Source: Azospirillum sp. TSA2s (GTDB lineage: Bacteria; Pseudomonadota; Alphaproteobacteria; Azospirillales; Azospirillaceae). From it: DNA of 64,000 bases. The stretch's first letter is position 1. Each line of letters starts with the position of its first letter. The stretch covers positions 62,001 to 126,000 of the forward strand of contig NZ_CP039649.1 of the NCBI RefSeq assembly GCF_004923315.1, read 5' to 3'. Positions 42,318 through 62,283 of the stretch are shown piece by piece. The translations under genes and the position numbers were made by a program. The notes below the pieces were generated by a model, which made no database searches, was not told the origin of the DNA, and saw only the letters and a program-made list of their open reading frames with translations.

Positions 42318-42331
42318 TTTATCGAGGTTAA
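42318..42331 (-). promoter_or_regulatory. FNR-like site before the small minus-strand gene
   Basis: TTTAT-CGAG-GTTAA. The site centre lies 32 bases from the centre of GATACT (42290-42295 on the complement), the class II activator geometry (-41.5). It is 67 bases upstream of the gene at 42251. Confidence 0.6.
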
Positions 42332-42391
42332 GGCCGATGCACATCCGGGGCGGATATTGGGGGTAGGGTCCCCGGATTTCAGCGGGGCGCG

Positions 42392-44440
42392 TCAGCGCCG
42401 GACGAGCACGACGATCGATCGCGCCTCCACCCTGTGGTGTGGTCCGGTGACCGGTGGCGCATCATCCAGGGACACGATGTCGCCGGGGCTTTCGAGCGCC
42501 GTGTTGATCACCCGGCGCCAGCCCTGTGGCGCGGTATCCTGAATCAGGAACTCCTGCTCCGCCGCCGAGGCATTGATCATGGCATAGAGATCGACATCGC
42601 CTTGCGTGCCGCCGCGCAGCAGAAAGGCGAGCGTGCCGCTGTCGGCCGAAGGGTCGAGGCTGCCGGTCGTTCCGAACCACGTCACATCCTCGCGCCAGCT
42701 GCGGCTGCGGCACAGTGTGGGATGGGCTTTGCGGAACGCGATCATCGCCCGGCAGAAGCGGTGAAAGTCGGCGTTGGTCCGCAGCAGATCCCAGTCGAGC
42801 CACGTCGTCTCGTTGTCCTGGTTGTAGGGGTTGTTGTTGCCACGCTGCGTGTTCAGAAACTCGTCGCCCGCCACGACCATCGGCGTGCCGTTCGCCAGCA
42901 TCAGCAGGCAGAACAGGTTCTTCGCCTGCCGGCGCCGAAGCCTGGCCACGGCCTCGGGCAGATTCACGTCTCCTTCCCAGCCGCAGTTCCAGGATCGGTT
43001 GTCGTCACGGCCGTCCCGGTTTCCTTCGCCGTTTGCCTCGTTGTGCTTCCGGTCGTAGCTGACCAGATCGTACAGGCAGAAGCCGTCGTGGCAGGTCACG
43101 AAATTGATGCTCTGATAGGCGTGATAGGCGTCCTCGGGCGTGTCGGGGAAGATGTCGTCGCTGCCGCCGAGCCGGCGGATCAGGCCGGCGGTGACCCCTC
43201 GATCCCCACGAATGAAGGACCGGACCTCGTTGCGGAATGTATCGTTCCATTGCAGCCATGTGGTTCCGGGAAAGGAGCGGCCGAGCTGGTAGCTGACCAC
43301 GTCCCAGGCCTCGGCGATCATCCGCAGGCGCGCCAGATCGGGATGCGTCTGGATCGCACTGATCACCGGCGGCTCTTCGAGATCGATGGAGCCGTCATCC
43401 CGGCGCGTGAACAGCGAGGCGAGATCGAAGCGGAAGCCGTCGATGCGGAACTGCCGCGCCCAATGGTGCAGGCTGTCCATGACCATGCCGGAGACATAGC
43501 GGTTGGCCGTATGCAGCACGTTCCCGGTGCCGCTGTCGTTGCGATAGCGGCGGCGGTCTTCGGCCAGAAGGTAGTAGGTGGTGTTGTCGACGCCGCGAAA
43601 GCTGTAGGTGGGGCCGCTTTCGTCGCTTTCGACCGTGTGGTTGTAGACGACGTCGAGGATCACTTCGATGTCGGCGGCGTGCAGCGCCTTGACCAGCGTC
43701 CGGAATTCGTCGAGCTGGCCGGCCGGCTCGGGGTCGGCTGCGTAGGTGTGATGCAGGGCGAAGAAGTTGAGCGGCATGTACCCCCAGTAATTTCCCTCCT
43801 GGGGATCGAACTGGAACACGGGCATCAGTTCGACCGCCGTGATGCCGAGGTCCCGCAGGTACGGAATCTTGTCGATCAGGCCCGCGAAGGTGCCCCGCCG
43901 GTCGGCCGGAACGCCGGAATTCGCCCGTTGGGTGAAGCCTCGGACATGCAGTTCATAGATGATGGTGTCGTGGGTATGGCGCGGGGCATGGTCGCCGGCC
44001 CAGTCGAAGCCGGACGCCTTGGCATGCAGGACGCCGAGGGGGGCGCGGCCGGGATTGGGTCCCGGATGGCGGGCGGCCTCGCGGCTGAAGCCGGACGGAA
44101 AGAAGACCGCCGTCGCATAGGGGTCGAGCAGGTTCTTCTCGGGATCGAACCGCTGCCCCTCGGCCGGCGCGCGCGGTCCGTCGACGCGATACGCATAGTA
44201 GGTCGCGCGGTCGACCGTGGTCGCGGGCAACCGGCAGTGCCAGATACGGCCACTCTTGTTGCGGCGGGGATCGAAGGGCTGGATCGCGATGGGGTCAATC
44301 GGATTCTGTGCGGAGAAAAGCAACAGAGTCACGGAAGTGGCGTGCTTGGAATATAGAGCGAAGTTGTAGGCGTCTTCGTCGGGGATGAAGGAAACTCCAA
44401 GCGGCGAGGGTGAGCCTTCGTGTCTTGTCCAATCGTCCAT
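42392..44440 (-). CDS. glgX: Glycogen debranching enzyme (isoamylase type)
   Basis: 682-residue GH13 debranching enzyme. The ATG at 44440 has GAAGGG ten bases upstream. An N-terminal CBM48 (SPLGVSFIPDEDAYNFALYS) leads to the catalytic barrel with VILDVVYNHTVE, GFRFDLASLF (nucleophile Asp), IAEAWD (acid Glu) and FVTCHDGFCLYDLVSY (transition-state Asp). It hydrolyses alpha-1,6 branches of glycogen so that phosphorylase can proceed. It lies 19 bases after the acyl carrier protein gene and is the last gene of a six-gene operon. No other glycogen gene is present. Mobilising glycogen when respiration stops would fit the surrounding genes. Confidence 0.93.
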   Translation of the reverse strand: MDDWTRHEGSPSPLGVSFIPDEDAYNFALYSKHATSVTLLLFSAQNPIDPIAIQPFDPRRNKSGRIWHCRLPATTVDRATYYAYRVDGPRAPAEGQRFDPEKNLLDPYATAVFFPSGFSREAARHPGPNPGRAPLGVLHAKASGFDWAGDHAPRHTHDTIIYELHVRGFTQRANSGVPADRRGTFAGLIDKIPYLRDLGITAVELMPVFQFDPQEGNYWGYMPLNFFALHHTYAADPEPAGQLDEFRTLVKALHAADIEVILDVVYNHTVESDESGPTYSFRGVDNTTYYLLAEDRRRYRNDSGTGNVLHTANRYVSGMVMDSLHHWARQFRIDGFRFDLASLFTRRDDGSIDLEEPPVISAIQTHPDLARLRMIAEAWDVVSYQLGRSFPGTTWLQWNDTFRNEVRSFIRGDRGVTAGLIRRLGGSDDIFPDTPEDAYHAYQSINFVTCHDGFCLYDLVSYDRKHNEANGEGNRDGRDDNRSWNCGWEGDVNLPEAVARLRRRQAKNLFCLLMLANGTPMVVAGDEFLNTQRGNNNPYNQDNETTWLDWDLLRTNADFHRFCRAMIAFRKAHPTLCRSRSWREDVTWFGTTGSLDPSADSGTLAFLLRGGTQGDVDLYAMINASAAEQEFLIQDTAPQGWRRVINTALESPGDIVSLDDAPPVTGPHHRVEARSIVVLVRR

Positions 44441-44459
44441 CGGAACATCGCCCTTCGCG

Positions 44460-44729
44460 TCATGCGATCCCGGCTTTTGCCGCAATCGCCGGATCGGCCA
44501 TGAGGTAGGCGACCGCTCCATCGAGGGTGATCAGGCGGGGGTAATCGACCTCGGGGATCGCGACGCCCAGCCGGTTGTGCAGCGCCGTCACGAAGTTCAG
44601 GTGATCCATGGAGTCGATGTCCAGCGCCTCCCGAAGGTCGGCCGCAGGGTCGAGGAGGGCAAGGTCGGCTTCGGGGGCGATGTTGCTCAGCTCCTCCAGC
44701 ACCACACGTCTTACATCGTCGGGCGTCAT
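44460..44729 (-). CDS. Acyl carrier protein
   Basis: 89-residue ACP: TPDDVRRVVLEELSNIAPEA, then LREALDIDSMDHLNFVTALH with the phosphopantetheine serine in DSM (about residue 37). The start overlaps the E2 stop by four bases (ATGA), so it is made together with the dehydrogenase. The ACP is unlike a housekeeping AcpP and has no fatty-acid genes beside it. Its coupling to an acetyl-CoA-producing complex and an AMP-forming ligase suggests it carries an acyl group made or used by them. No 4'-phosphopantetheinyl transferase gene is nearby. Confidence 0.9.
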   Translation of the reverse strand: MTPDDVRRVVLEELSNIAPEADLALLDPAADLREALDIDSMDHLNFVTALHNRLGVAIPEVDYPRLITLDGAVAYLMADPAIAAKAGIA

Positions 44730-45907
44730 AGCGATCCGGGCTCCTGCAGCAGACGATCGATTTCGGCAAGGAGAAGGGCGCCACGGTGGCCGTCGCTGAC
44801 CCGATGGTCGGCCGCGAGGGTCGCCGTCATCACGGGGCATGGAACGACCTGCCCATCCGCCACCCAAGGCCGCTCGACCGGCTTGCCGAAGCCGACGATG
44901 GCGACCTGCGGCGGGTAGATGACACCGAACACCCCCTCTACCCCGCGGTCGCCGAGACTGGTGACGGTGATGGTGGGATCCTGCAGCTCGGAACTGCGCA
45001 GCCGCCCGGAGCGTGCCCGTGCGACCACGTCACGCAGGCGGGCCATCACCTCGTCCACGGCCAACTTGTCGGTGTCGTGGATCGCGGGTGCGACGAGGCC
45101 GCCGCCGCGGATCGCCACCGCGGTGCCGATATGAATGCCCTCGGCCGGTCGGAACGTCCCGTCGATACAGAAACCGTTGAACTCGGGCAGGCGGCGCAAG
45201 GCCAGCGCGACGGCCTTCAATTGCAGCGCCGCCAGGAGCAGCCGCTGTTCGGGCGGGCGTCCCGTGTTCCGATCAATGAGCCAGGCGTTCGCCTTGGCCA
45301 GGGCCACCGTGGTGCTCAGGTAGTAGTGAGGGATTTCCTGATTGGAGCGCGCCATGGCCGCAGCGATCGCCCGCCGCATCTGCGCCAGATCCAGGCCGCG
45401 CGCCGGCGAGGCGGCGGATGGCGTAGCGGCGGCCCGCTCGACGTCGGCGAGCAGCACGGCACCTCCTGGCCCGCTGCCGGCAATGGCGGTCAGGGCGATG
45501 CCACGCTCGGCCGCCAGCCGCCGTGCCGCCGGCGACGCCGGCGGATGAGCGGTCGCCACCATGACCGGAGGGGGCGTGACCGGAGGGGACGGGAGCGGCG
45601 CCGGTGCCCGCAGCGGCGGGGGAGGGGGCGCCGATGGCTGCGGCTCGGGGCTGGGCAACACGATGCTCTCGCCGGCTCCGGCGAGCAGGGCGAGCGGTGT
45701 GCCGACCGGAACCGTGGTTCCGGGAGTGACGAGCAGCCGTTCGATCACCCCCGCCTCGAAGGTCTCGACCTCGATGGCGCCCTTCTGCGTTTCCACAACG
45801 GCGACGATGTCGCCGCGGGCGACGGCATCGCCCGGCTGTTTGAGCCATTCGACCAGGACGCCCGCCTCCATGTCGGCGCCCAGAGACGGCATTCGGAAAA
45901 TGCCCAT
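44726..45907 (-). CDS. Dihydrolipoyl acyltransferase (E2 of a 2-oxo acid dehydrogenase)
   Basis: 393 residues. The N-terminal lipoyl domain has the modified Lys in VVETQKGAIEVETFEAG (about residue 43). A Pro/Ala-rich linker is followed by a peripheral subunit-binding domain (ASPAARRLAAERGIALTAIA) and the catalytic domain with TLAADHRVSDGHRGALLL (HxxxDG). It transfers acetyl or another acyl group from E1 to CoA. The start overlaps the E1beta stop by one base and the stop overlaps the ACP start. No E3 gene is in the cluster, so a shared lipoamide dehydrogenase must serve it. Confidence 0.94.
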   Translation of the reverse strand: MGIFRMPSLGADMEAGVLVEWLKQPGDAVARGDIVAVVETQKGAIEVETFEAGVIERLLVTPGTTVPVGTPLALLAGAGESIVLPSPEPQPSAPPPPPLRAPAPLPSPPVTPPPVMVATAHPPASPAARRLAAERGIALTAIAGSGPGGAVLLADVERAAATPSAASPARGLDLAQMRRAIAAAMARSNQEIPHYYLSTTVALAKANAWLIDRNTGRPPEQRLLLAALQLKAVALALRRLPEFNGFCIDGTFRPAEGIHIGTAVAIRGGGLVAPAIHDTDKLAVDEVMARLRDVVARARSGRLRSSELQDPTITVTSLGDRGVEGVFGVIYPPQVAIVGFGKPVERPWVADGQVVPCPVMTATLAADHRVSDGHRGALLLAEIDRLLQEPGSL

Positions 45908-46917
45908 CACGCCCCCATCAGCGCCTTGACCGCCGCCACGATGGCAGCCGGTTGCGGAAGCGCCGCCTGCTCCAGATGCCGGGGGTAGGGGATCGGCACC
46001 TCGGCCGTGCAGACCCGCGCCACCGGAGCGTCGAGCGACCAGAAGGCCCCCTCCATGATGCGGGCGCTGACCTCCGCGGCGAAGCTGCCGGTCCGCCAGC
46101 CTTCGTCGACGATCACCGCCCGGCGGGTGCGGGCGACCGAGGCCAGCACGGTTTCGGCATCGAGCGGCCGCAGGCTGCGCAGGTCCACGACCTCCGCCGA
46201 CACATTGTCCGCCGCCAGGGCTTGCGCGGCGGCGAGCGTCTTGAACAGGCTGCCGCCGTAGGTGATCAGCGTCACGTCCGTGCCGGGGCGGCGGACCACC
46301 GCACGGTCGATGTCGACCGGACCGGCCGCGGCATCCAGCGTTCCCTCCATGTTGTAGAGCATCACATGCTCGAACATCACCACCGGGTCGGGGTCCTGCA
46401 GTGCGGTCCACAGCATGCCGCGCGCGTCCTCCAGGGTGGCCGGCGCCACCACCCGCAGGCCCGGCACATGGGCGTACCAGCCCTCCAGACTGTGGGAGTG
46501 CTGGGCGGCGAGCTGGCGCCCCGCCCCGGTCGGAATGCGGAAGACCACCGGCACGCTCACCTGTCCGCCGGACATGTGGCGGAGCGTCGCTGCGTTGTTG
46601 ACGATCTGGTCGAGCGCCAGCAGGCTGAAGTTGACGGTCATGATCTCGACGATCGGACGCATGCCGTTCAGCGCGGCGCCGATGCCGGCGCCGACGAAGG
46701 TGGATTCCGACAGCGGCGTATCGCGGATGCGGTCCGGCCCGAACTCGTCGTACAGGCCTTTGCTCACGGCGTAGCATCCGCCGTAGCACCCGACATCCTC
46801 GCCCATCAGAAAGACCCGCTCGTCGCGCAGCAGCGCATCACGAAGCGCCTCACGCAGGGCGTCGCGGTAAGTGATCGTTCGGCTGGCCGCCGCCACGGTG
46901 ATGTCCGCATCGGTCAT
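45907..46917 (-). CDS. 2-oxo acid dehydrogenase E1 beta subunit
   Basis: 336-residue E1beta. The ATG at 46917 overlaps the E1alpha stop by four bases; an 18-residue upstream extension is open but lies inside E1alpha. Recognisable are [40 protein letters not shown], the thiamine-pyrimidine pocket and [16 protein letters not shown] with [13 protein letters not shown]. It forms the alpha2beta2 thiamine-dependent E1 with the upstream gene product. Pyruvate or acetoin is the likeliest substrate. Branched-chain acids are less likely because no branched-chain genes are nearby. Confidence 0.94.
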
Positions 46918-47917
46918 GGATGCACCTCGCGGGTATAGACGTCCTTCGCCAGATCCTCGACCGGCTCCCATTGCCCGGCCTCGGCGAATGCGACCGCCGC
47001 CTCGATCTCCGCCTCGGTTTCCCGTTCGATGGCGGGGAGATCGGCGTCGTGCAGCATGCCGGTTTCCCGCATCCAGGCGGACAGCCGGGCGACGGGGTCA
47101 TGGCGCTTCCAATCCTCGACCTCCGCCTTGTCGCGGTAGAGCTGGGGGTCGAACATGGAATGGGCGCGGAAGCGGTAGGTCCGGCATTCGAGGAATTGCG
47201 GCCCGGCGCCATCGCGTATCGCATCGGTCATGCGCCGTGCCGCCGCCTCGACGGCGACGACGTCCATGCCGTCCACCGCCTCCGACGCGACCTGATAGAC
47301 GGCGGCCTTGAGGTGCAGGTCGGTCTGCGACTGTGCCCTATCGAGGCGCGTGCCCATGGCGTAGAGGTTGTTTTCGCAGACGAACAGGACCGGCAGTTTC
47401 CACAGTGCGGCGAGGTTCAGGCTCTCATGGAACTCGCCCTCGGCAACGGCGCCGTCGCCGAAGAAGCATGCGGTCACCCGCGGCCGGCCACGCATGCGGT
47501 CGGCCAGCGCCATGCCCACCGCCAGGGGTAGCCCACCGGCGACGATGGCATTGCCACCGAAAAAGCGGGTGCCGACATCGAACAGATGCATCGATCCGCC
47601 GCGCCCGCGGCTGCAGCCTTCGGCCTTCCCGTACATCTCGGCCATGACGGCGGTCATCGGGACGCCGCGCAGGATGGCGTGTCCATGCTCGCGGTAGGTG
47701 GCGACGACGGCGTCTTCGGGATGCAGGCACGCCATCACCCCGGCGGCCACCGCCTCCTCGCCGATATAGAGGTGAAGAAAGCCGCGGATCTTTTCCTGCT
47801 GGTACAGTTCGCCGCACCGCTCCTCGAAGCGGCGAATGCGCACCATCTGCCGCAGCAGACCCAGCAGATGGTCGCGGGTCAGGCGCGGCTTCGCATGCGG
47901 GGCCAGAGACTGGTCGG

Positions 47918-47921
<4 letters not shown>
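46914..47921 (-). CDS. 2-oxo acid dehydrogenase E1 alpha subunit
   Basis: 335-residue E1alpha. [20 protein letters not shown] and [17 protein letters not shown] lie at the N-terminus. The thiamine diphosphate motif is [20 protein letters not shown] ending in FVCENN, and the phosphorylation-loop region is [17 protein letters not shown]. Pyruvate dehydrogenase and acetoin dehydrogenase E1alpha have this size and pattern. The start overlaps the acetyl-CoA synthetase stop by four bases, so carbon entering as acetate and as pyruvate would reach acetyl-CoA from one transcript. Confidence 0.94.
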
Positions 47922-49675
<1,754 letters not shown>

Positions 49676-49768: not shown

Positions 49769-49782
49769 TTAACCCAGGTTAG
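49769..49782 (-). promoter_or_regulatory. FNR-like site of the acetyl-CoA synthetase-dehydrogenase operon
   Basis: TTAAC-CCAG-GTTAG. On the complement, TAACCT (49741-49746) lies with its centre 32 bases from the site centre, matching class II spacing, about 94 bases upstream of the operon's first ATG. Confidence 0.6.
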
Positions 49783-49837: not shown

Positions 49838-51214
49838 TTATGGATGGTCCGGTCGGACCTGACCGATGCTGTCGGCCTGTTCGGCGAGCGCTTCAAGGTC
49901 GGGCGAAATGACGGATTCAATGGTCGCATGATGCGTCAGATCGCGTACCGGCTCGGGCAGGCTCGCCAATTCGGCCGCAGCGTGGGAGCGAATGGCGGTC
50001 AGGTCCGGCGGTGCCCCGACACGGCGCCCGTTCCGCATTACCGGGATCAGCAGCGGACGTCCCGGCTCTTGCGCTTCGGCGACGGACAGCAGGTCCGTCC
50101 GGATCCGGCCGCCGGCATCGTAGCTGCGGAACACCTGTTTACGCCCCGGCCAAGTCGCTTTGCCGGGCGAGCGCTTGCGCCGAGGCAACCCGGCATACTC
50201 GACCAGCTTGTAGGCGCAGTCGAGCGCGGGCGCGTCGCTGGAGGTGGTCAGGCTGGTGCCGATACCGAAGCTGTCGATGGGCGCATTCGCGGTCAGCAGC
50301 GACCCGAGCGCATACTCGTCCAATCCACCGCTCGCCACGATGTGCGTCCCGCTCAATCCGCCGGCATCGAGGATCGCACGCACCCGTTGTGATTGCGTTG
50401 CGAGGTCGCCGCTGTCCAGCCTGACGGCAGACGGATGGACCCCGTCGACCGCCAGCTTGCCTGCCAGGGACACCACGGTCCCGGCTGCCGCCTCGGTGTC
50501 ATAGGTGTCGAGCAGCAGGGTCAGATTCCGTGGACGTGAACGGGCGAAGTTGATGAATGCGTCGGCTTCCTGCCGATGGGCTTGCACGAAGGAATGCGCC
50601 ATCGTCCCGACGATCGGAATGCCGAAACGCCGGCCGGCCAAAGCGATTGCCGTTCCGGCGAAGCCCGCGATGTATGCGGCTCGTGCAGCCAGGAGCCCGG
50701 CTTCAGCGCCGTGTGCCCGGCGCAGACCGAAGTCGAACAGCGGGCGACCGTCCGCCGCCAACACCAGCCTTGCGGCCTTTGAGGCGATGACGGTCTGAAG
50801 GTGAATCAGGTTGATCAGGCGCGTTTCCATCATCTGCGCTTCCGGCAGGCTGGCCGTCACGCGCAGGATCGGTTCATGGGCGAAAAAGGCCGTCCCTTCG
50901 GGGAGCGCGTCCACATCCCCCGAGAAGCGGAAGTCCCCAAGATAGTCGACGGTCCGGTTCGACAACCGGGCATGGTCGCGCAGCCATGCCAGATCGTCCG
51001 GAGCAAATCTGGCCGTCTCCAGGAAGGCAACCGCCTGCTCGAGGCCGGCTGCGATCAGAAAATTCCTTTGGTTCGGCAGGGTGCGGACGAACAGCTCGAA
51101 TGATGCAGTGCCGTTCATTCCGTGGTCGAGGTAAGCGTCGACCATGGCGACCTCGTAGAGGTCCGTAAGCAGAAGATTGTCGCCATCGCACAGTGGACCG
51201 GGATGGATGTTCAT
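49838..51214 (-). CDS. pncB: Nicotinate phosphoribosyltransferase
   Basis: 458-residue enzyme of NAD salvage that joins nicotinate to PRPP. LLLTDLYEVAMVDAYLDHGM, RTLPNQRNFLIAAGLEQAV, FDFGLRRAHGAEAGLLAARA, LLDTYDTEAA, AVRLDSGDLA and SFGIGTSLTTSSDAPALD are all family-typical. The PRPP it needs could come from the PRPP synthetase encoded at 57522-58502 in the same locus. The short C-terminal extension contains no cysteine cluster. It ends 56 bases before the FNR-like site of the next operon. Confidence 0.94.
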   Translation of the reverse strand: MNIHPGPLCDGDNLLLTDLYEVAMVDAYLDHGMNGTASFELFVRTLPNQRNFLIAAGLEQAVAFLETARFAPDDLAWLRDHARLSNRTVDYLGDFRFSGDVDALPEGTAFFAHEPILRVTASLPEAQMMETRLINLIHLQTVIASKAARLVLAADGRPLFDFGLRRAHGAEAGLLAARAAYIAGFAGTAIALAGRRFGIPIVGTMAHSFVQAHRQEADAFINFARSRPRNLTLLLDTYDTEAAAGTVVSLAGKLAVDGVHPSAVRLDSGDLATQSQRVRAILDAGGLSGTHIVASGGLDEYALGSLLTANAPIDSFGIGTSLTTSSDAPALDCAYKLVEYAGLPRRKRSPGKATWPGRKQVFRSYDAGGRIRTDLLSVAEAQEPGRPLLIPVMRNGRRVGAPPDLTAIRSHAAAELASLPEPVRDLTHHATIESVISPDLEALAEQADSIGQVRPDHP

Positions 51215-51921: not shown

Positions 51922-51935
51922 TTTATCTGGATTAA
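51922..51935 (-). promoter_or_regulatory. FNR-like site upstream of hsp20
   Basis: TTTAT-CTGG-ATTAA, 74 bases before the hsp20 start. TAAAAA (51894-51899 on the complement) is centred 32 bases from the site centre. Confidence 0.6.
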
Positions 51936-54623: not shown

Positions 54624-54705
54624 CCGCCGAAGGCCGAACCGACCAGCCGATTTCGGCCTCGGAATCTCCAAAGAAGTATTCCCGTCCGAATGCACCATGT
54701 TGTTC

Positions 54706-54719
54706 TTAACGTGGATTAA
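54706..54719. promoter_or_regulatory. FNR-like site between the ATPase and phasin-like genes
   Basis: TTAAC-GTGG-ATTAA. On the plus strand TCTAAA (54741-54746) is centred 31 bases away. On the complement GAATAC (54676-54681) is centred 34 bases away. The site could serve both divergent genes. Confidence 0.6.
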
Positions 54720-54808
54720 GGGCCGAGAAAAAGATTCTCTTCTAAATCCCGCGATGCCCAGCCTGGGCTGGCCGGCGGCAAATGCCGGGCAGAAGAGGAG
54801 GAGTATCG

Positions 54809-55270
54809 ATGAGGAGCCACGCGATCAACACACCGGCTTCCCCCCAATTGGAAGGCGCATTTCCAATATGGACCGCCAACACACTGCTGCAAACCAACTT
54901 TCTGGAACGGACCGAGGCAATCTTGCGCATGCAGTCGAACCTGTTCGGCGGTTTCGAGACCATGAGCCGCAACTGGCTGGAACATCGCCAGGACGATCTC
55001 CAATCGGCATTGTCCACCGTGGAGCGGATGGGAACGGTGGAGGATGCGGCGGAACGATCCTCTCTCTGGAACGACTGGATGGCCGACCGCCTGAAACGCT
55101 GGTCGGAAGAGGCGGCCGCGGTGGTGGAGCAGGCGCAGGGCATGTCCCGCGCCATGGCCGAACAGGCATCCGCCAGCGCATCGGTCGACCGGCCCTTCCA
55201 TCCGAGGGAACGGCGCTTTCCGAATGCCGAGGGTCGGCGCGACGGCAAGCCCGAGGAAGCGCGCGGCTGA
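54809..55270 (+). CDS. Phasin-like granule-associated protein
   Basis: 153-residue, helix-forming protein; GAGGAGGAG lies seven bases before the ATG. LLQTNFLERTEAILRMQSNL, FGGFETMSRNWLEHRQDDLQ and AVVEQAQGMSRAMAEQASAS resemble phasin-family proteins, which coat polyhydroxyalkanoate granules through amphipathic helices. No synthase or depolymerase gene is close by. The FNR-like site at 54706-54719 and TCTAAA place it in the low-oxygen regulon. The gene at 55307 may be co-transcribed (36-base gap). Confidence 0.82.
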   Translation: MRSHAINTPASPQLEGAFPIWTANTLLQTNFLERTEAILRMQSNLFGGFETMSRNWLEHRQDDLQSALSTVERMGTVEDAAERSSLWNDWMADRLKRWSEEAAAVVEQAQGMSRAMAEQASASASVDRPFHPRERRFPNAEGRRDGKPEEARG

Positions 55271-55306: not shown

Positions 55307-56002
55307 ATGGGCCATTGGCCGGCGATGGAAGGGGGGGACGGAATCACGGCCCTTTTCAGGGACCGGACCGATGCCGGCAGGCGGCTGGCCGAAAAGCTGT
55401 CGCCCCTGCGGGATCAGGCGCCCGTTGTCCTGGCCCTCCCGCGCGGCGGTGTTGCGGTGGCGGTGGAGATCGCAAGGAGGCTTCACGCCCCGCTCGGGCT
55501 CGTTCTGGTCCGCAAACTCGGTGCTCCGTACCAGCCGGAACTGGCGATCGGTGCGATTGCCAGTTGTGGGGCAGGAGGGAACGCGGCGATCGAGACGGTG
55601 ATCAATTCCAACGTCGGCCTCCTTTTGCCCGATTCATGGCTCGAAGAGGAGACGGGTCGTCAACTCAAGGAATTGGAGCGACGCCGCACCACTTATCTCG
55701 CAGGTCGGCGTCAGCCGGCCATAGCCGGCCGTACCGCCATCCTGGTCGATGACGGCATTGCCACCGGTGCCACCATGCTCGCCGCTCTCCAAGCGGTGCG
55801 CAAGGAGGGGCCGAAGGCGCTCGTGTTGGCCGTTCCGGTGGCGCCGGCGGACAGCCTGGCTGCATTCACCGAAACAGCGGACACCGTCATCTGTCTGGAA
55901 ACTCCCGCCTCTTTCATGTCCATCGGAGCGTTCTACCGCGACTTCCGCCAACTGGATGACTCCGACGTGATCGGTCTCCTCGACGCTGCCGGACAATTTT
56001 GA
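55307..56002 (+). CDS. Phosphoribosyltransferase-domain protein
   Basis: 231 residues; GGGAGGAGG precedes the ATG. The type I PRTase fold is shown by PVVLALPRGGVAVAVEIARR, VRKLGAPYQPELAIGAIA and the PRPP loop TAILVDDGIATGATMLAAL. Proteins of this group occur in stress clusters beside universal stress and Hsp20 genes in many proteobacteria. Their base substrate is unknown. It may also act as a dienelactone-hydrolase partner in fused forms elsewhere, but no such domain is present here. PRPP could be supplied by the Prs encoded nearby. Confidence 0.9.
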   Translation: MGHWPAMEGGDGITALFRDRTDAGRRLAEKLSPLRDQAPVVLALPRGGVAVAVEIARRLHAPLGLVLVRKLGAPYQPELAIGAIASCGAGGNAAIETVINSNVGLLLPDSWLEEETGRQLKELERRRTTYLAGRRQPAIAGRTAILVDDGIATGATMLAALQAVRKEGPKALVLAVPVAPADSLAAFTETADTVICLETPASFMSIGAFYRDFRQLDDSDVIGLLDAAGQF

Positions 56003-56010: not shown

Positions 56011-56024
56011 TTGATCTCGGTTAA
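56011..56024 (+). promoter_or_regulatory. FNR-like site upstream of the GYD-domain gene
   Basis: TTGAT-CTCG-GTTAA, 112 bases before the gene at 56136 and eight bases after the phosphoribosyltransferase stop. The -10 match (CATTGT at 56047-56052) is weak although the spacing is right. Confidence 0.5.
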
Positions 56025-56135
56025 CGAGGATCGCTCCTCTGCCGTCCATTGTGAAAGCCGAAGAAAAGTCATGAACGCAGCTCGGCTGTTCGGCTGACCT
56101 CCCAGCCAGCGGCCACGGGAATGGAGAGGCACGCC

Positions 56136-56447
56136 ATGGCCACATTCATCATGCTGACACGGCTTATCCAGGGGACGAAAGCTCCACCGAAATCCACCGA
56201 CAAGATCCGGCAGCATCTCGCCGAACAGATCGGCCAGAACTGCCCGGATGTCGAATGGCGAAGCAGCTTTGCCGTTCTCGGTCCCTACGACTTCCTCGAC
56301 ATCTTCACCGCTCCAGGGATTGACGCGGCAATGAGGGTGGCGACCACCGTCCGTGCGTCCGGTTACGCCCACACCGAAATCTGGGGGGCAAGCGAGTTGC
56401 ATCCCATCCATGCCGCTGTTCGGACCTCCGACCCTCTGGCCGAATAG
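56136..56447 (+). CDS. GYD domain protein
   Basis: 103 residues; GGAGAGG lies upstream of the ATG. ATFIMLTRLIQGTKAPPKST, AVLGPYDFLDIFTAPGIDAA and MRVATTVRASGYAHTEIWGA match the GYD family, a small ferredoxin-like alpha-beta fold of unknown function common beside stress genes. An FNR-like site lies 112 bases upstream. It converges, with only two bases between stops, with the COG2187 gene on the other strand. Confidence 0.88.
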   Translation: MATFIMLTRLIQGTKAPPKSTDKIRQHLAEQIGQNCPDVEWRSSFAVLGPYDFLDIFTAPGIDAAMRVATTVRASGYAHTEIWGASELHPIHAAVRTSDPLAE

Positions 56448-56449: not shown

Positions 56450-57499
56450 TCAATGTTTCTCTATGCATGTGAGATATTGATCGATGCGTTCCAACCACCG
56501 TCTCCGTTGGGCGGCAGTGGCATCGGCCAGCCGGTGTGCGGCCAGACGGATGCGGATACAAGCGCGGACACTGCGATAGAAGGCGACCAGATGAGGATCG
56601 GCCCTGTCCCCGCTCCGCGCCTCGTAAATCTTCAGAAGATGGCTGGCGATCCACCCTTCTCCCAGGCGATCGCATTCAAGACCGAGATAGGAAAGCTCAT
56701 CAACGGGATCGAGCAGCCGGAGTGCCCGGTCGAATTCAAGGCAGTCGATGATCTGAAGGGGAACCGTAAAAAAGATGTGTTCGGGGCGAAGGTCGCCATG
56801 AGCTTCGATGATCCGCCGGCCTTCCGCCCGCTTCCGCAACAGCCCGCGTTGTGTTTTCAGAAACCCTCGCTGCCAGATCGCAGCCTTGTTTGCCCGGTCG
56901 GCCATTCCTTTGGGGAGTGTGGTTCTGGCCGCGATCTGGTTCTTCTCAACATCCTGGGCAAATCGGCCTAGGTACCTGTCGGCCGGCATCGGAACGGATC
57001 GACTGAAGCGGTAAAATCTCGACAGCGTAATCCCGAGATTCCGGACGTCGCTTGTCTGCAAGGTGTTGGAGCCGATCAATTCGTCCATCCGCCGGTCGGT
57101 CGGAAGGCGCTGCATCCAAACCACCCAATCGACGACACGATCGGCAGGCCCAGGCCGCTCGCACAAGCTGAGGCCACCATCCGGCCGAAGGGCAAGGCAA
57201 AGGGCGGCGTGATAAACCAGCGGACTGAGTCGACGGTTCAACCGTATTTCGGTCAGACAATTTGCATGCCGCAACGCCACCGTCGACAGGTTCACTTCGG
57301 GAAGCCGTCGTGGTTTCTTCAGTTTGTACGCATTTCCCTCGGTTAGGAAGACCCAGGAAAGACGGGTTTCGATCGCTTCGACCTGGCTGGGGCGATCGAA
57401 ATAAGCATCGGGCCTCTCTAGGAACTCCACCTTCAATTCGAGCGGATAGTCCTGGTCCGCCGGCATTCGATCCGCGCGCTGTATCGGATGGTCATCCAC
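56450..57499 (-). CDS. COG2187 aminoglycoside-phosphotransferase-like protein
   Basis: 349 residues with a kinase-like fold. The ATP-lysine region is AYKLKKPRRLPEVNLSTVAL, the catalytic loop IEAHGDLRPEHIFF, and the metal-binding segment QIIDCLEFDRALRLLDPVDE. In this group Asp of DFG is replaced by Glu/Phe-Asp as seen here. Family members often carry a fused C-terminal AAA/kinase domain, which is absent. No antibiotic role is implied; the true substrate is unknown. It is the third member of a minus-strand set with the PRPP synthetase and universal stress protein genes (gaps of 22 and 38 bases). Confidence 0.87.
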   Translation of the reverse strand: MDDHPIQRADRMPADQDYPLELKVEFLERPDAYFDRPSQVEAIETRLSWVFLTEGNAYKLKKPRRLPEVNLSTVALRHANCLTEIRLNRRLSPLVYHAALCLALRPDGGLSLCERPGPADRVVDWVVWMQRLPTDRRMDELIGSNTLQTSDVRNLGITLSRFYRFSRSVPMPADRYLGRFAQDVEKNQIAARTTLPKGMADRANKAAIWQRGFLKTQRGLLRKRAEGRRIIEAHGDLRPEHIFFTVPLQIIDCLEFDRALRLLDPVDELSYLGLECDRLGEGWIASHLLKIYEARSGDRADPHLVAFYRSVRACIRIRLAAHRLADATAAQRRRWLERIDQYLTCIEKH

Positions 57500-57521: not shown

Positions 57522-58502
57522 CTAAAGAAGATCGCTCAACGAACCGCCGGCATGCATGCGGGCGATCGCCTCTGCGAACAGCGGGGTGGTGTCCAGAACC
57601 GTGAGTCTTCGAACCGCTATGTCGCCCTCCAATCGCCAGGGCGGTACCGTGTCGGTCACCACGACGCTGTCGAAGGCCGGCGACTGCAGCATCTCGACGG
57701 CACCTGGCGCGAACACTCCGTGGGTTGCCATTGCCACCACCGAAAGGGCTCCCGCCGTCCGGCACGCTTCGGCGGCCCGCAGCATGGTGGTTCCCGTTGC
57801 AATGAGATCGTCGAGAATCAGTACTCTGCAGCCAGCCACGTTGCCGACCAACTGGCCACCGCCGACAACTCCGGCACTGCGGGTCTTCTCCATGAAGGCC
57901 AGACCGACCGGCCGGGCAAGGCTGTGCTCCAGCGTTTCGTGAAGCTGTTCGACCCTCTTCATGCCTCCGACATCGGGGGAAACCAGGGCAATCGGGTCAT
58001 TCCCCGCCGTCGCCTTGACGTGATCGGCAAAAAGGGGTCGTGCCAGAAGATGCTCGGTCCGGCAGCGGAAAGCATTCTCGAATGCGGCCTGATTGTGCAC
58101 GTCCATCGTGACGACCCGGTCGACACCGGCCGCCTCGAACAGGATCGCCAGTTGGCGGGTTGCCACAGGGTCGCGGGATTTCGTGCGGCGGTCCTTGCGG
58201 CTGTAGGCCAGATAGGGGGCCACCACCGTCACCCGGCGCGCGGACGAATCCTTCAGGGCCCCGATGAAAAGCAGGAGCCGCCAGAGCTTGTCATGCACGC
58301 TGTCATGAGCATCGCCCAGCAGGGACTGGACAACGAACACGTCGCGGTCCCTGACGCTGATCAAGGGGCGAACCTTCATTTCGCCATCCTCGAAGCGCCT
58401 CTCCTCATGCGGGGAAACGGGAATCTCCAGATGGGTGGCGATCCGGCGGCCATGCCGCCAATGCGGGTCCAGATCGAACAGCAGCATTCCATCGTGCGTC
58501 AT
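57522..58502 (-). CDS. Ribose-phosphate pyrophosphokinase (PRPP synthetase)
   Basis: 326 residues; GGGAGG precedes the ATG at 58502. FEDGEMKVRPLISVRDRDVF, APYLAYSRKDRRTKSRDPV with the flexible loop, VVTMDVHNQAAFENAFRC and the PRPP-binding VLILDDLIATGTTMLRAAEA are diagnostic. It makes PRPP from ribose 5-phosphate and ATP. The sequence groups with the divergent Prs found in low-oxygen loci rather than the housekeeping enzyme. PRPP would feed the nicotinate phosphoribosyltransferase and the phosphoribosyltransferase-domain protein encoded nearby. Confidence 0.93.
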   Translation of the reverse strand: MTHDGMLLFDLDPHWRHGRRIATHLEIPVSPHEERRFEDGEMKVRPLISVRDRDVFVVQSLLGDAHDSVHDKLWRLLLFIGALKDSSARRVTVVAPYLAYSRKDRRTKSRDPVATRQLAILFEAAGVDRVVTMDVHNQAAFENAFRCRTEHLLARPLFADHVKATAGNDPIALVSPDVGGMKRVEQLHETLEHSLARPVGLAFMEKTRSAGVVGGGQLVGNVAGCRVLILDDLIATGTTMLRAAEACRTAGALSVVAMATHGVFAPGAVEMLQSPAFDSVVVTDTVPPWRLEGDIAVRRLTVLDTTPLFAEAIARMHAGGSLSDLL

Positions 58503-58540: not shown

Positions 58541-59428
58541 TCAGTGTGCGATCAGGACCGAACATTCGAGAGCGGTCCCCAGCACATGGCGGGTTGCGCC
58601 GCCCAGGACCATTTCCCGGAACCGGCTGTGTCCGTAGCCGCCCATGACCAGAAGACCCGCACCGATCTCCTTCGCCCTTCCGGTCAGCAACTCGCCGGTC
58701 GGGCGGCCGTCCTTGTGCAGGACGTCGACCGCCACGGAGATGCCGTGCCAGGCCAGATGGTCGGAAAGGCATGTGATCATCGGCGCCGTCGGACCATTGA
58801 CGTCATCGTCTCCGTCCACCGTCAGTATGGTGGCATTCCGCGCCCGCCGCAGGAGCGGCATGGCCCCGGCGATCGCCCTTGCCGCTTGCCGGCTGCCGTC
58901 CCAGGCGATTGCGATCGATGAAAGCGCCTCTCCATCCATGCCTGGTGCCGCCAGCAGGATCGGCTGACCGGTTTCGAACAATGCCGTCTCCAGCCGCAGG
59001 ACATTGGCCGGAGCATCGAATGGCTGCGCGAACAGGAGGAGGTCGGCACAGCGCCCACGCTGAGTGAGAATGTCCTCCGGCTGGCCAACCATTTCGCGCC
59101 AAGTCGCTGTGATGGAACCGGACGCGATGGCGGTATCGGCGTCGGGATAGCCGACGCTGTGAATGCCGGCGGTCGCAACAGCGGCGTCGAAGCTGCGCCT
59201 TGCGTGCGATGCCCGTTCCTGGTCCGCCTGCTCCGCCTCCCGGATCAGGCGCTCCAGCATGTCGGATGAGAAGCCCTCGGCAATCGGCGGAATGGCCAAC
59301 CGCGGGTCGGGCCGAACGTGGAAGGCCTCAACATGCCCATGGAACAGCTTGGCGAGGGTAAAGGCGGCGTTCAGCGCCCGTTCGTCGGCGGCGTCACCAT
59401 CGAGCAGGACAAGTATATGCTTGATCAT
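58541..59428 (-). CDS. Universal stress protein, tandem UspA domains
   Basis: 295 residues. ATG at 59428 with GGAGACGG upstream. The first domain begins MIKHILVLLDGDAADERAL. The second carries the ATP-type loop MGGYGHSRFREMVLGGATRH with HVLGTALECSVLIAH. An FNR-like site (59490-59503) lies upstream and this gene probably leads the minus-strand unit Usp-Prs-COG2187. Tandem Usp proteins of this sort are the most regular members of Anr-, FNR- or DosR-type hypoxia regulons. Confidence 0.92.
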   Translation of the reverse strand: MIKHILVLLDGDAADERALNAAFTLAKLFHGHVEAFHVRPDPRLAIPPIAEGFSSDMLERLIREAEQADQERASHARRSFDAAVATAGIHSVGYPDADTAIASGSITATWREMVGQPEDILTQRGRCADLLLFAQPFDAPANVLRLETALFETGQPILLAAPGMDGEALSSIAIAWDGSRQAARAIAGAMPLLRRARNATILTVDGDDDVNGPTAPMITCLSDHLAWHGISVAVDVLHKDGRPTGELLTGRAKEIGAGLLVMGGYGHSRFREMVLGGATRHVLGTALECSVLIAH

Positions 59429-59489: not shown

Positions 59490-59503
59490 TTGATCCAGGT
59501 TAA
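59490..59503 (-). promoter_or_regulatory. FNR-like site of the universal stress protein unit
   Basis: TTGAT-CCAG-GTTAA, 62 bases before the gene at 59428. The -10 region at class II distance (TACGGA/CCTATC) is poorly defined. Confidence 0.55.
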
Positions 59504-59547
59504 CCTGATCGACCCCAACGGTGAATCTCCGGTCAATCGCAAACGGG

Positions 59548-59561
59548 TTTATCCAGGTTAA
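59548..59561 (+). promoter_or_regulatory. FNR-like site before the BCAM0308-family gene
   Basis: TTTAT-CCAG-GTTAA, with GTATAC at 59585-59590 centred 33 bases downstream and the ATG at 59621. It forms a divergent pair with the site at 59490-59503. Confidence 0.65.
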
Positions 59562-59620
59562 GGCGGCGTTTTGCCTGGGCGCGAGTATACCGCTTTCCGC
59601 TTACCGGGGAGGACGTGGCC

Positions 59621-60142
59621 ATGGGACAAAAACCTCAGAACCGCCGCGCGGTCATCGATGGCCGCCTGCAACCGGAACGGCGAGACCGGCTGATCCAGGA
59701 GAAGGAGCACGACCCCTACAAATCGGACCTCAAACCCGCCGATCCCAGCGTCTGTTCACGCTGCCACGCGGTCTACGAGGACGGTCGCTGGCGGTGGGGG
59801 GCGAGGCCCGCCGATGCGACGGAGACCGTGTGCCAGGCCTGCCAGCGCATCGAGGAGCGGATCCCGGCCGGCATCCTGACGATGAGCGGCGCCTTCGTCC
59901 AAGCCCATCGTGCCGAGATCATGGCGCAGGTCCGTCATCAGGAGAAACTCGAGACCGCCGAGCATCCGCTCAACAGGATCATGGACATCCAAGACACCGC
60001 CGACGGGATGGACGTGACGACCACGGATCTTCACTTGCCCCGGCGCATCGCCGAAGCGCTCGCTGGCCATCACCACGGTGAAGTGACGTGGAAGTACGCC
60101 GAGGGCGAGTGCCTCCTCAGGGTGAATTGGCACACCGATTGA
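59621..60142 (+). CDS. BCAM0308-family protein
   Basis: 173 residues; GGGGAGGA lies eight bases before the ATG. Two Cys-x2-Cys pairs (SVCSRCHAVYEDGRWRW and TVCQACQRI) suggest a zinc ribbon. The C-terminal half has HRAEIMAQVRHQEKLETAEH and LNRIMDIQDTADGMDVTTTD. It resembles the family named after BCAM0308, a gene in the low-oxygen-activated locus of Burkholderia cenocepacia. The role is unknown; nucleic-acid or ribosome binding is possible. FNR-like site and -10 box are well placed upstream. Confidence 0.87.
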   Translation: MGQKPQNRRAVIDGRLQPERRDRLIQEKEHDPYKSDLKPADPSVCSRCHAVYEDGRWRWGARPADATETVCQACQRIEERIPAGILTMSGAFVQAHRAEIMAQVRHQEKLETAEHPLNRIMDIQDTADGMDVTTTDLHLPRRIAEALAGHHHGEVTWKYAEGECLLRVNWHTD

Positions 60143-60198
60143 GACGCGGACCGGCTGGGAGCGGAGTTGCAGGGAGCGGGCCTTCTCAGGCGATGCGG

Positions 60199-60237: not shown

Positions 60238-60270
60238 CACGGCCATTTGGTCACGGCCAGCTGGTCACGA
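60235..60270. repeat. 14-bp tandem repeat downstream of the regulator gene
   Basis: GGTCACGGCCATTT, GGTCACGGCCAGCT and a partial GGTCACGA follow each other, starting in the hairpin's right arm and reaching the regulator's stop codon region. Confidence 0.75.
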
Positions 60271-61128
60271 GGGGCCGAAGGGCGAGCCGATGGGCGATGA
60301 TATGGGCGATGATCCATGGCATCGGCCGGATGCATTGTGCCAGGCATCCCCGCACCATGTGTCCGGCTCCAACCCCGGAGGCGGCGGCAGGAATGCGGAC
60401 TGGGGCGCCGGCGTCTCGGACATCTCCGCCAGATCGGCCAACCGCGGCCAATCCATGACGCGCAGTCGCCCCTTGGTGAACGACAGCAGTCCGGCGGCCC
60501 GCATCTCCTTCAAGGTCCGGCAGACATGAACCGAGGTCAGGCCGGTCGCGTCGGCGATCACCGTCTGGCTGATCGGGAGCGCGAACTCGTCCACACAGTC
60601 GTCATCCACACAGGCGCCGGACTCCCGGCGTTGGCGTTGGCACAGCGCGACGAGGAGGCGGGCGATCCGCTCGGTCGCGGTGCAGGTGCCGAGCCCGCCC
60701 AGCAGACGCCAGTCCGAAATCGTCTCCGCCGCCAGAAGCGACCACATCCGCAACGTCAGTTCCGGTGCGGTCTGGCAGAACCGCATCAGCGACTGGCGCG
60801 GGATCGGACAGGCGGTGAGGTCGGTCAGCGCCTCCACCGTGCAGGGCATGCAGCCGTCGGCGGTCGTCTCGAACCCGACTATGCTTCCGGGCATGGCGAA
60901 GCGAAGCACCTGGCGACGCCCGTTCTCGTGGAAGACGGACACCGCCGCCCAGCCGCGGCGAATGATGAACACCATCTCGCTGCCGTCCCCTTCGGCGAAG
61001 ACGCAGCCGCCCGCAGGCACATGCCAGAGCGGGTGCTTGATGGTGCCGAGCGCCTGGAGTTGCGCGTCGGAGGCGCTTGCGCATAGCCCGTCGCGTCGAA
61101 CCGGGCAGGATTGGCATTCGGGCCGCAT
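60265..61128 (-). CDS. FNR/FnrN-type transcriptional regulator
   Basis: 287 residues; AAAGG upstream of the ATG at 61128. The N-terminal cysteines ECQSCPVRRDGLC (5, 8, 16) and a central TACPIPR (107) match the four [4Fe-4S] ligands of FnrN-type oxygen sensors. The cyclic-nucleotide-like barrel is followed by a dimer helix and an HTH (ISQTVIADATGLT). In the recognition helix TSVHVCRTLKEM the residues equal to Glu209 and Ser212 of E. coli FNR are Val200 and Cys203, while Arg213 is kept (Arg204). A 50-residue tail follows the usual end and contains a repeated SSPI from a 12-bp tandem duplication (60290-60313). It is the likely controller of the nine FNR-like sites. Confidence 0.92.
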   Translation of the reverse strand: MRPECQSCPVRRDGLCASASDAQLQALGTIKHPLWHVPAGGCVFAEGDGSEMVFIIRRGWAAVSVFHENGRRQVLRFAMPGSIVGFETTADGCMPCTVEALTDLTACPIPRQSLMRFCQTAPELTLRMWSLLAAETISDWRLLGGLGTCTATERIARLLVALCQRQRRESGACVDDDCVDEFALPISQTVIADATGLTSVHVCRTLKEMRAAGLLSFTKGRLRVMDWPRLADLAEMSETPAPQSAFLPPPPGLEPDTWCGDAWHNASGRCHGSSPISSPIGSPFGPS

Positions 61129-61150
61129 GGGACGCCTTTCTCGCATGTAC

Positions 61151-61537
61151 CTAATGTCTCGGCTCGCTCGGGTTTGCCGGGCGCAGCTGGGGGAGCAGTT
61201 CGGCCTGCGCCAGCGAGTCGATCAGGGCTGAAACGATGATGTGGCTGCCGATGGGGCCTTCCGCCGCTTCCTGGGCCGCATCCAGGTGTCCGTCGAGGCG
61301 ACAGGCCACGGTCAGCTTGACGGCGACGCCGAGGGGCGTTTGGGCGGGGGTGCTGATCAGCGAGCGCAGCAGCCACTTCCGCCGGGCGGTTTCCCCGTCC
61401 TCGGATTCCCGGTAGCGTTCGTGCAGCAGCAGGAGAGCGTGATCGCTGTGCGAACCGGTTGCTAGTGCTGCAACAGAAAAACTCAAGAGTTCCGCGTGCA
61501 GCGCTTCACTGTTCGAAAAGCCATGCGATGAAGACAT
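61151..61537 (-). CDS. Hypothetical helical protein upstream of the regulator
   Basis: 128 residues from the ATG at 61537, preceded by GGAGACG. Predicted helical: EALHAELLSFSVAALATGSH, LLLLHERYRESEDGETARRK and KLTVACRLDGHLDAAQEAAE. No recognised domain. It ends 22 bases before the FNR-type regulator start on the same strand, so the two are probably co-transcribed, and a perfect FNR box lies 93 bases upstream. It may modulate or accompany the regulator. Confidence 0.75.
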   Translation of the reverse strand: MSSSHGFSNSEALHAELLSFSVAALATGSHSDHALLLLHERYRESEDGETARRKWLLRSLISTPAQTPLGVAVKLTVACRLDGHLDAAQEAAEGPIGSHIIVSALIDSLAQAELLPQLRPANPSEPRH

Positions 61538-61629
61538 GGTTCGTCTCCACAGAACCGTCACGGAACGACGGCGGAGATTGGAAAACTCACTAAGTATACA
61601 GAACTTGCGCTCCGGAGGGGATGGGAGAG

Positions 61630-61643
61630 TTGATCTGAATCAA
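61630..61643. promoter_or_regulatory. Perfect FNR box upstream of the hypothetical-regulator pair
   Basis: TTGAT-CTGA-ATCAA is an exact FNR consensus palindrome. TGTATACT (61593-61600 on the complement) is the nearest -10-like sequence, about 41 bases from the centre, so its geometry differs from that of the other sites. The 399-base gap 61538-61936 has no gene. The remaining part, 61644-61936, shows nothing else I can support. Confidence 0.6.
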
Positions 61644-61936
61644 ATATGCGATGCCCTATACAGAATGGATCGTGCTCTACCCAAGATGATAGGAATTTAC
61701 AAAGTAGGTGCAGAAATTTCTGGCTGGTGGCGGTCGGGAAGGGGAGAGGGTATGGAAGCCGCCTGCCGAAGCCGCGCCTCGCCTTCGGCTGTCCACGGCG
61801 TCAGACTGAGGATTTGCCGGGCTCGCTCATGCGCCTGCCCGGCCCGGATCTTCCGGTTCCCGATCACACCATCTTTTCCCGGCGCCGCGCCGGCTTGGAA
61901 GTGGCGACAGCCCTTGCGACGGCGAACGGCCGGCCG

Positions 61937-62194
61937 CTATCGCGGGTCCGGGAACTCGCTGTCGCCAATCAGGATGCAGTACACCTGTTCGACACGGCCG
62001 GACAGTGCATGGCGCGCCTTTCCCATCGTGTCGCTCTCCTGGGAGAACCAGGCAAATGCCTGGAGCAGTTCCTCACGGCTCGCTCCGGTTTCCAGAATGG
62101 CGGCAATGCTGGCATCGTCGATCCGGCCGACCGTCTCCACGATGTCCTCGGAAGTAAGCCGCTGGCTCAGAGGCTTCATGCCTGAGGGTTCCAT
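61937..62194 (-). CDS. Small hypothetical protein of the low-oxygen locus
   Basis: 85 residues; AGGAGG lies upstream of the ATG at 62194. MKPLSQRLTSEDIVETVGRI, DDASIAAILETGASREELLQ and GRVEQVYCIL match a family of small alphaproteobacterial proteins with an SxxDIVEIVGPLD...IIATGA layout that lie in stress loci (recognised from memory). All-helical, cytoplasmic, function unknown. The FNR-like site 62270-62283 and TCTAAT are well placed upstream. Confidence 0.78.
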   Translation of the reverse strand: MEPSGMKPLSQRLTSEDIVETVGRIDDASIAAILETGASREELLQAFAWFSQESDTMGKARHALSGRVEQVYCILIGDSEFPDPR

Positions 62195-62269
62195 GGCGAC
62201 TTCCTCCTGGATGGCTGGCTGCGGGAGTGTTGGCTCGGATCATTAGACCGCAAGACTTCGGGTCGCCGC

Positions 62270-62283
62270 TTGATCCAGGTTAA
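62270..62283 (-). promoter_or_regulatory. FNR-like site before the 85-residue gene
   Basis: TTGAT-CCAG-GTTAA. On the complement TCTAAT (62242-62247) is centred 32 bases away, with the ATG at 62194. It might also act on the HPF gene at 62495, but no -10 was seen in that direction. The gap 62195-62494 otherwise contains a minisatellite. Confidence 0.6.

Follow-up and report, generated by a model that had tools for sequence, protein, structure and literature searches.

TTAA-type promoter boxes and an FNR relative with a changed recognition helix in a predicted low-oxygen survival regulon of Azospirillum

Introduction

The window analysed here, a stretch of 64,000 nucleotides from Azospirillum sp. 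TSA2s (C8:62001-126000; the genome comprises 8.1 Mb in 10 contigs), raises the question of which regulator governs the stress and survival genes that gene calls and family searches place at 41-63 kb, and through which DNA code. Within this block lies the gene of a Crp/Fnr regulator, hereafter REG (60265-61128, minus strand, PF00027 and PF13545), whose closest named relatives belong to Azospirillum and Skermanella, and the promoter regions of the block carry fourteen-base palindromes that resemble the FNR box. The initial annotation of the stretch assigned nine such palindromes to one low-oxygen regulon. The block is read here, with a probability of about 0.65, as an Azospirillum low-oxygen survival regulon akin to lxa and the FixK2 targets, with REG, an FNR relative of switched specificity, as its regulator and perhaps FnrL above it. 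Its control by oxygen is predicted from homology. No literature on this regulator or its box was found among open-access texts.

Two classes of boxes in the stress block

All nine 14-mers are present, at 42318, 49769, 51922, 54706, 56011, 59490, 59548, 61630 and 62270. In the window, 19 strand-matches to the loose pattern TTNAYN4RTNAR were counted, a 7-fold excess over 100 dinucleotide shuffles (mean 2.65, largest 9). Seventeen of these matches belong to the nine sites, and the other two, at 22387 and 58351, had been omitted from the annotation. All nine sites lie wholly between genes, where a home-made gene caller and hand-checked genes leave 10.9% of the region non-coding (binomial p 2e-9). 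The enrichment that the annotation expected across the genome was also found: TTNAYN4RTNAA occurs 146 times and its reversed form 49 times, with C at the third base (TTCAY-like) in many places among the matches listed, and TTDAYN4RTTAA marks 18 distinct places, eight of them in C8:104318-128840 (seven in the window and one just past it). The pattern TTKATCNNGRTTAA is found at seven places in the genome, six of them in the block, and its reversed form at none. No TTAA-type box was found in seven 20-kb stretches of the same genome that had not been picked for a site.

The right half of the palindrome is GTTAA or ATTAA in seven of the nine sites, GTTAG at 49769 and ATCAA at 61630. Eight of the nine sites have at least one TTAA half, and one (54706) has two; a standard FNR search would thus miss most of them, as had been argued. 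The sole match to TTGAYN4RTCAA in the window is 61630, whose centre lies 75 bp ahead of orf136-REG, the putative operon of the regulator itself. The idea of one regulon of nine sites therefore holds as far as an FNR-like regulon is concerned, but the sites fall into two classes and the predicted regulon extends past the window. Likewise, eight of the nine sites stand at promoters of stress and metabolism genes, as annotated, whereas 61630 fronts the regulator operon. The contrast between the canonical 61630 and the TTAA halves of the eight target sites suggests two tiers of control.

The canonical class is kept at other copies of the REG operon. Ten such loci were compared, namely the window, a paralogue on contig C4 (L063), L094-L099, L106 and L107, with operon starts set from tblastn ends and boxes 69-208 bp from these starts. 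In 10/10 loci, both halves of the best box ahead of orf136-REG have G as their third base. The box matches TTGAT/ATCAA at 10/10 letters in two loci and at 9/10 in eight, five of the latter being GTGATCCAGATCAA. Among 1000 dinucleotide shuffles per locus, the FNR score was reached by 0, 10, 4, 9, 2, 31 and 3 in seven of the ten loci. The C4 copy of REG, 92-94% identical, has its FNR-type box at C4:404318, and past its operon TTAA-type boxes at C4:406657 and 408595 stand ahead of a Usp gene, a cytochrome-like gene and an unknown open reading frame (ORF). The perfect form TTGATN4ATCAA occurs ten times in the genome, 61630 included, with none for the reversed control. Two other perfect boxes precede a MoaA-like gene and hypD, and a gene with a Tle1-like phospholipase domain of the type VI secretion system (L141, 74-1180) lies beside the canonical FNR box at C9:1491647.

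Architecture of the promoters

Class II activators bind with the site centre at -41.5, which places the -10 element 29-30 bp from that centre. To describe the boxes, 33 stretches (679 kb), many of them picked for holding REG or boxes, were scanned for sites that deviated nowhere or only once, at an outermost base, sites with C at the third base being left out. Of the 134 sites found, 120 are non-coding and 14 coding; strict sites divide into 94 non-coding and 1 coding, one-off sites into 26 and 13. Counted by base, 28.5% of the sequence was eligible, either as non-coding DNA or because it lay no more than 40 bp from a gene end. In 39 promoters without look-alikes (strict or one-off sites with only one gene downstream, at a distance of 40-140 bp, a few of FNR type such as L063:8318 included), the hexamer that starts at offset 29 from the site centre has the highest AT content, 0.57, compared with 0.37 at the mirrored place and 0.21-0.47 at offsets 7-28. 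This peak matches the class II distance. The geometry proposed in the annotation is thereby supported; its six -10 hexamers all start 28-30 bases from the site centre, which puts their own centres at the described 31-33 bases. The TCTAAT at 62270 points away from the hibernation-factor gene hpf.

The pattern was picked after the sites had been seen, so that chance palindromes have to be considered. However, the window shuffles, the ratio of 94 strict non-coding sites to 1 coding site and the common promoter spacing make chance a negligible explanation.

The usual box consists of one TTAAY half and a different half. By the third base of each half, the 94 strict sites comprise 40 AG, 27 AT, 14 AA, 9 GG and 4 GT pairs, and the 58 that remain after removal of look-alikes 28 AG, 13 AT, 8 AA, 6 GG and 3 GT. 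An A half is joined to a non-A half more often than expected (41/58 against 29.3, p 0.002). Such non-random pairing could reflect a REG-FnrL heterodimer that reads hybrid TTGAY/RTTAA boxes, one half each, and a passage of PMC5934665 proposes an Fnr1-Fnr3 heterodimer of this kind in Herbaspirillum. However, the second half is often TTTAY (the 13 AT pairs) and in one-off sites CTAAC, and neither fits an FNR half. Because these second halves fit no FNR half, a REG homodimer on one strong and one tuned-down half explains the pairing equally well, and we regard the heterodimer as quite unlikely.

The regulator REG and its recognition helix

REG finds its best match in the Protein Data Bank (PDB) in FNR, by sequence and by fold. 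Its predicted model is of limited confidence overall (pLDDT 65, pTM 0.50), with the recognition helix at 199-211 among the better predicted parts. Cys5, Cys8, Cys16 and Cys107 are invariant in 12/12 aligned proteins, Cys107 aligning with the cysteine of the FNR stretch VCEIP, and so are Cys118 and Cys203. The spacing C-X2-C-X7-C is kept in all twelve, and X7 is found in the FnrL of the same genome as well. These residues point to a putative [4Fe-4S] cluster as the oxygen sensor.

The recognition helix of FNR carries Glu209, Ser212 and Arg213. The REG segment GLTSVHVCR aligns without gaps to GLTVETISR of FNR and has Val200, Cys203 and Arg204 at these places, so that the FNR form of the helix is not kept; the V-H-V-C-R helix is present in all twelve aligned REG proteins. 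REG scores 92.3 bits against the NCBIfam FnrL equivalog NF045989, below its cut-off of 300. The FnrL of the genome itself, at C9:1508 kb, has the helix LTTETVSR. All twelve proteins have the cysteine Cys203 where FNR has its serine, and a redox switch at the DNA contact is possible there.

The replacement of Glu209 by valine has a counterpart in CprK of Desulfitobacterium. Passages of PMC2610375 place Val-192 of CprK at the position of FNR Glu-209, let it contact the base that differs between the dehalobox and the FNR box, and give TTAAT-N4-ATTAA as the dehalobox consensus. REG shares with CprK the valine at this place, and its predicted boxes share TTAA halves with a 4-base spacer. Because the valine helix of REG coincides with TTAA boxes, the pair would be, by correlation, a second instance of the CprK rule. 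In contrast to the dehalobox, which has TTAA on both sides, the Azospirillum boxes have two TTAA halves in only one of nine window sites and 14 of 94 strict sites. Unlike CprK, which binds chlorophenols, REG is nearest to FNR by sequence and fold and has FNR-type cysteines.

Box and regulator in Azospirillum genomes

In 45 Azospirillum genomes, including that of the window and not weighted by phylogeny, the TTAA-type box follows REG, which supports the annotated view of the product of 60265-61128 as the likely binder. REG is present in 17 genomes, at 63-100% identity in ten and at 36-42% in seven. The pattern TTDAYCNNGRTTAA occurs in 17/17 REG-bearing genomes and 11/28 REG-less ones, with means of 4.59 and 0.57 distinct places, respectively, whereas its reversed control gives 0.59 and 0.64 strand-matches. 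TTKATCNNGRTTAA is found in 14/17 REG-bearing and 3/28 REG-less genomes.

A simple tie between the boxes and the lxa gene, which encodes the NF040826 family protein, is disfavoured by eight REG-bearing genomes that lack an NF040826 match and hold 1-10 box places each. Three genomes have an NF040826 match and no REG: G015 with 5 box places, G033 with 1 and G010, whose match is below the cut-off, with 0. The stretches read around the NF040826 match of G033 and G010 contain no TTAA box.

Related clusters outside the genus

Few genomes sampled from other genera have the NF040826 gene. Clusters were found in 4/299, 6/385 and 2/18 sampled genomes, the first two counts including the genome of the window and the third the centre of its own sample, G438; two genomes of this survey, G723 and G411, were read at their small loci only. 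Stretches of the alphaproteobacteria G438, G440 and G521 contain seven TTGAY/RTCAR boxes and one match with C as its third base but no box with a TTAA half, as counted by box sequence. No homologue of REG turned up in the stretches read, which were the only parts of these three genomes searched for it. The clusters of G438 and G440 carry homologues of acs, E1, naprt, prs and hpf. G402 has only a match with C at the third base, and no box was found in the stretch read from G364, which lies outside the alphaproteobacteria.

These clusters bear on a single-tier explanation, in which ordinary FnrL is less selective than usual and occupies all nine sites, and REG has another job. One TTGAY half is retained in many boxes (the 28 AG pairs among 58 strict sites), and the REG-less genome G015 keeps boxes, as FnrL binding would allow. 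However, the boxes track REG, while matches of FnrL length (28-30% identity) are listed for most genomes of the genus, the helix having been read in three genus loci (L001, L051 and L056). Moreover, the related alphaproteobacterial clusters have TTGA on both sides, and 41 of the 94 strict sites, the AT and AA pairs, lack a TTGA half altogether. A single FnrL tier thus appears unlikely.

Observations that weigh against REG as the reader of the boxes

Several observations do not fit easily with REG as reader. In G015 (L093) the cluster proteins are mostly 89-97% identical, the ATPase being a fragment, and seven cluster boxes are kept, but the space between lxa and hpf no longer contains REG and orf136; the best REG match in the entire genome reaches 33%. 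A REG gene lost recently, or a different reader, would account for this arrangement. G040 (L105) has only a piece of 57-58 REG residues beside its boxes, with a 41% relative elsewhere in the genome. The association of REG and box may in part come from shared descent and cluster transfer. Outside the alphaproteobacteria, G196 (46% GC) has the TTAA-half box TTAACTTAAATCAA 234 bp ahead of its lxa gene, and in G164 two matches with a TTAA half lie more than 8 kb from the lxa gene; both are exceptions in AT-richer genomes.

The boxes and the protein themselves add further points. Three of the ten REG-operon boxes tie at 9/10 exact letters with the TTAA-type template, and because the ties arise at the Y/R positions, the class of these boxes rests on the third base alone. 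Class II spacing is also missing at the REG-operon box: in the window and in L094, the TATACT on the operon side is at offset 38, and no clear -10 element at class II spacing was seen in the other loci. Similarly, the box at 59490 ahead of usp has no good -10 element at this spacing. The third cysteine gap is X7 in REG and X5 in Aliivibrio fischeri FNR.

Valine at the Glu209 place is not confined to REG either. A second Crp/Fnr type of 282-286 residues, with the helix GLSIVHINR and no cysteine cluster, has it too and is encoded in the genome of the window (L004), G025 (L049) and G015 (L050). The boxes might accordingly be read by this type for a signal other than oxygen, and its presence in both the host genome and the REG-less G015 would suit that role. 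However, it also occurs in G025, which has no TTDAYCNNGRTTAA box, and it was not seen adjoining the cluster, so that we consider it a very unlikely reader.

Genes of the block and their boxes

The left end of the block carries a DUF1264 gene (41168-41941) and, on the minus strand, a small conserved ORF of 83 residues without a Pfam match (42000-42251). The TTAA-type box TTTATCGAGGTTAA at 42318-42331 likely serves this ORF, with its centre 73 bp upstream and GATACT at offset 29, and its surroundings align to L094 (96%) and L096 (83%). A position between convergent genes had been considered for this site and for 56011, and was ruled out by the small conserved ORFs found beside both. A DUF1264 paralogue, 92% identical to window 41168-41941, lies at 8379-9149 of L065 (C10:1-20000); TTGATCGAGGTTAA is found at 9265 of that locus, about 115 bp past the paralogue, and the 42318 box likewise lies beyond the DUF1264 gene.

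An operon-like run on the minus strand (44460-49675) encodes acetate-CoA ligase, E1 alpha, E1 beta and E2 proteins of pyruvate dehydrogenase (PDH) type and a small ORF, which resembles an acyl carrier by eye only and is a candidate without a family search. The TTAA-type box at 49769-49782, CTAACCTGGGTTAA when read towards acs, has TAACCT at offset 29. Nicotinate phosphoribosyltransferase (49838-51214, minus strand) follows 3' of the gene for the small heat-shock protein Hsp20 (51290-51847) on the same strand. The TTAA-type box of hsp20 (51922-51935, TAAAAA at offset 29) is kept ahead of hsp20 in L093, L094, L095 and L096.

Between the gene of an MgtA-type P-type ATPase (52035-54623, minus strand; longest ORF 52035-54698) and the plus-strand genes of a phasin (54782-55270) and a phosphoribosyltransferase (55307-56002) lies the TTAA-type box TTAACGTGGATTAA (54706-54719), with TCTAAA at offset 28 towards the plus-strand genes. 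The TTAA-type box TTGATCTCGGTTAA (56011-56024) stands ahead of a GYD-domain gene (56121-56447 as the longest ORF, plus strand, with a second ATG at 56136 by eye). An ORF without a family match (56450-57499) and the gene of ribose-phosphate diphosphokinase, the phosphoribosyl pyrophosphate (PRPP) synthetase (57522-58502), follow on the minus strand, and a gene for a GlgX-type debranching enzyme is also part of the block.

The minus-strand usp gene (58541-59425) and the plus-strand gene of the lxa_BCAM0308 family protein (59615-60142; NCBIfam NF040826, 185.9 bits against a cut-off of 100) diverge from two TTAA-type boxes. The first, TTGATCCAGGTTAA at 59490-59503, has its centre about 70 bp ahead of usp, and the second, TTTATCCAGGTTAA at 59548-59561, about 60-66 bp ahead of the lxa gene with GTATAC at offset 30. 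Upstream of REG lies orf136 (61151-61561, minus strand), which has no Pfam match, adjoins REG in the close relatives examined and is possibly a partner or modulator of REG; the canonical box TTGATCTGAATCAA ahead of the pair occupies 61630-61643. Between the REG operon and hpf, 61646-62185 gives a weak DDE_Tnp_1_5 match (27.8 bits, cut-off 28.1), possibly an insertion-element remnant. The last TTAA-type box, again TTGATCCAGGTTAA (62270-62283), precedes a gene for an HPF-like ribosome hibernation factor (S30AE) with a cold-shock domain (62471-63067, plus strand), towards which CAGAAT lies at offset 28; the TCTAAT at offset 29 points left, to an ORF of 85 residues without a Pfam match. This box is kept ahead of hpf in L093 and L105. 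An Rfam scan of 38000-64000 gave no structured RNA at gathering cut-offs.

Beyond the window, the predicted regulon includes sites at C8:128827, C4:406657, 408595 and 517960, C8:191778 and C10:9265. The box at C4:517960 (L012) precedes a second S30AE hibernation-factor gene and that at C8:191778 (L021) a zinc alcohol dehydrogenase gene; both genes are likely further members.

Comparison with known systems

Passages of PMC4505428 describe the Burkholderia lxa locus as 50 genes, with BCAM0287 up 17-fold at low oxygen and an FNR box-like motif at many of the genes induced under this condition; the locus also appears in parts of PMC6127331 and PMC9733578. Like lxa, the window block unites genes of the BCAM0308, Usp, small heat-shock and FNR families. 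In the window block, the target boxes are of TTAA type and the regulator has valine at the FNR Glu209 place.

In excerpts of PMC9104804, FixK2 of Bradyrhizobium diazoefficiens is a Crp/Fnr activator that acts at N4-spaced palindromes, exerts microoxic control over Hsp20, Usp, nitroreductase and chaperonin genes, and drives further Crp/Fnr genes. The window likewise combines a Crp/Fnr regulator, N4-spaced palindromes and Hsp20 and Usp genes. However, the FixK2 box rows in those excerpts contain no TTAA half, most pairing TTGA with TCAA or GCAA, and FixK2 has a single cysteine (Cys183) there, unlike the FNR-type set of REG.

Herbaspirillum also has several FNR proteins, hybrid boxes and Usp targets, and in PMC5934665 the proposal of Fnr1-Fnr3 heterodimers on hybrid half-sites has two-hybrid support. 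The motif groups differ there at positions 1/14 and 6/7, and in Azospirillum at the third base. REG shares the Crp fold, the cysteine set and the C-terminal helix-turn-helix with Aliivibrio and E. coli FNR and with alphaproteobacterial FnrL, but differs from them in its recognition helix and target boxes.

Conclusions

The sequence itself shows the boxes and where they lie, their link with REG, the altered helix, the class of the box at the REG operon and the AT peak at -10 distance. On this basis, the eight TTAA-type boxes of the window would be class II activator sites of REG. REG has kept the cysteines of a putative [4Fe-4S] sensor and, because Val200 replaces Glu209, is proposed to read a changed base. 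At low oxygen, REG dimers loaded with the cluster would occupy sites centred about 41.5 bp ahead of the transcription starts and activate Hsp20, Usp, the hibernation factor, the phasin, acetate-CoA ligase with the PDH-like complex, the Mg-type ATPase, and enzymes of PRPP and NAD salvage. Because a canonical FNR box stands at the REG operon, FnrL probably acts on REG, turning it on or adjusting it, which would add a second oxygen tier with a DNA code of its own. A bolder extension holds that Azospirillum and Skermanella have two oxygen tiers with separate DNA codes, FnrL (TTGA) acting on REG (CprK-like TTAA), and hybrid promoters read by REG-FnrL heterodimers that respond to both; this remains doubtful.

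In its widest form, this extension would predict TTAA-type sites as the targets of any Crp/Fnr protein that has a V-H-[VI]-x-R helix and whose box is not known. If REG reads the boxes as proposed, one amino-acid change in an oxygen-sensor family would be tied to one base change in the box, apart from CprK, in a genome set in which box and regulator largely come and go together. The failure of ordinary FNR/FixK searches to detect a regulon for stress and dormancy in nitrogen fixers associated with plants would thereby be explained.

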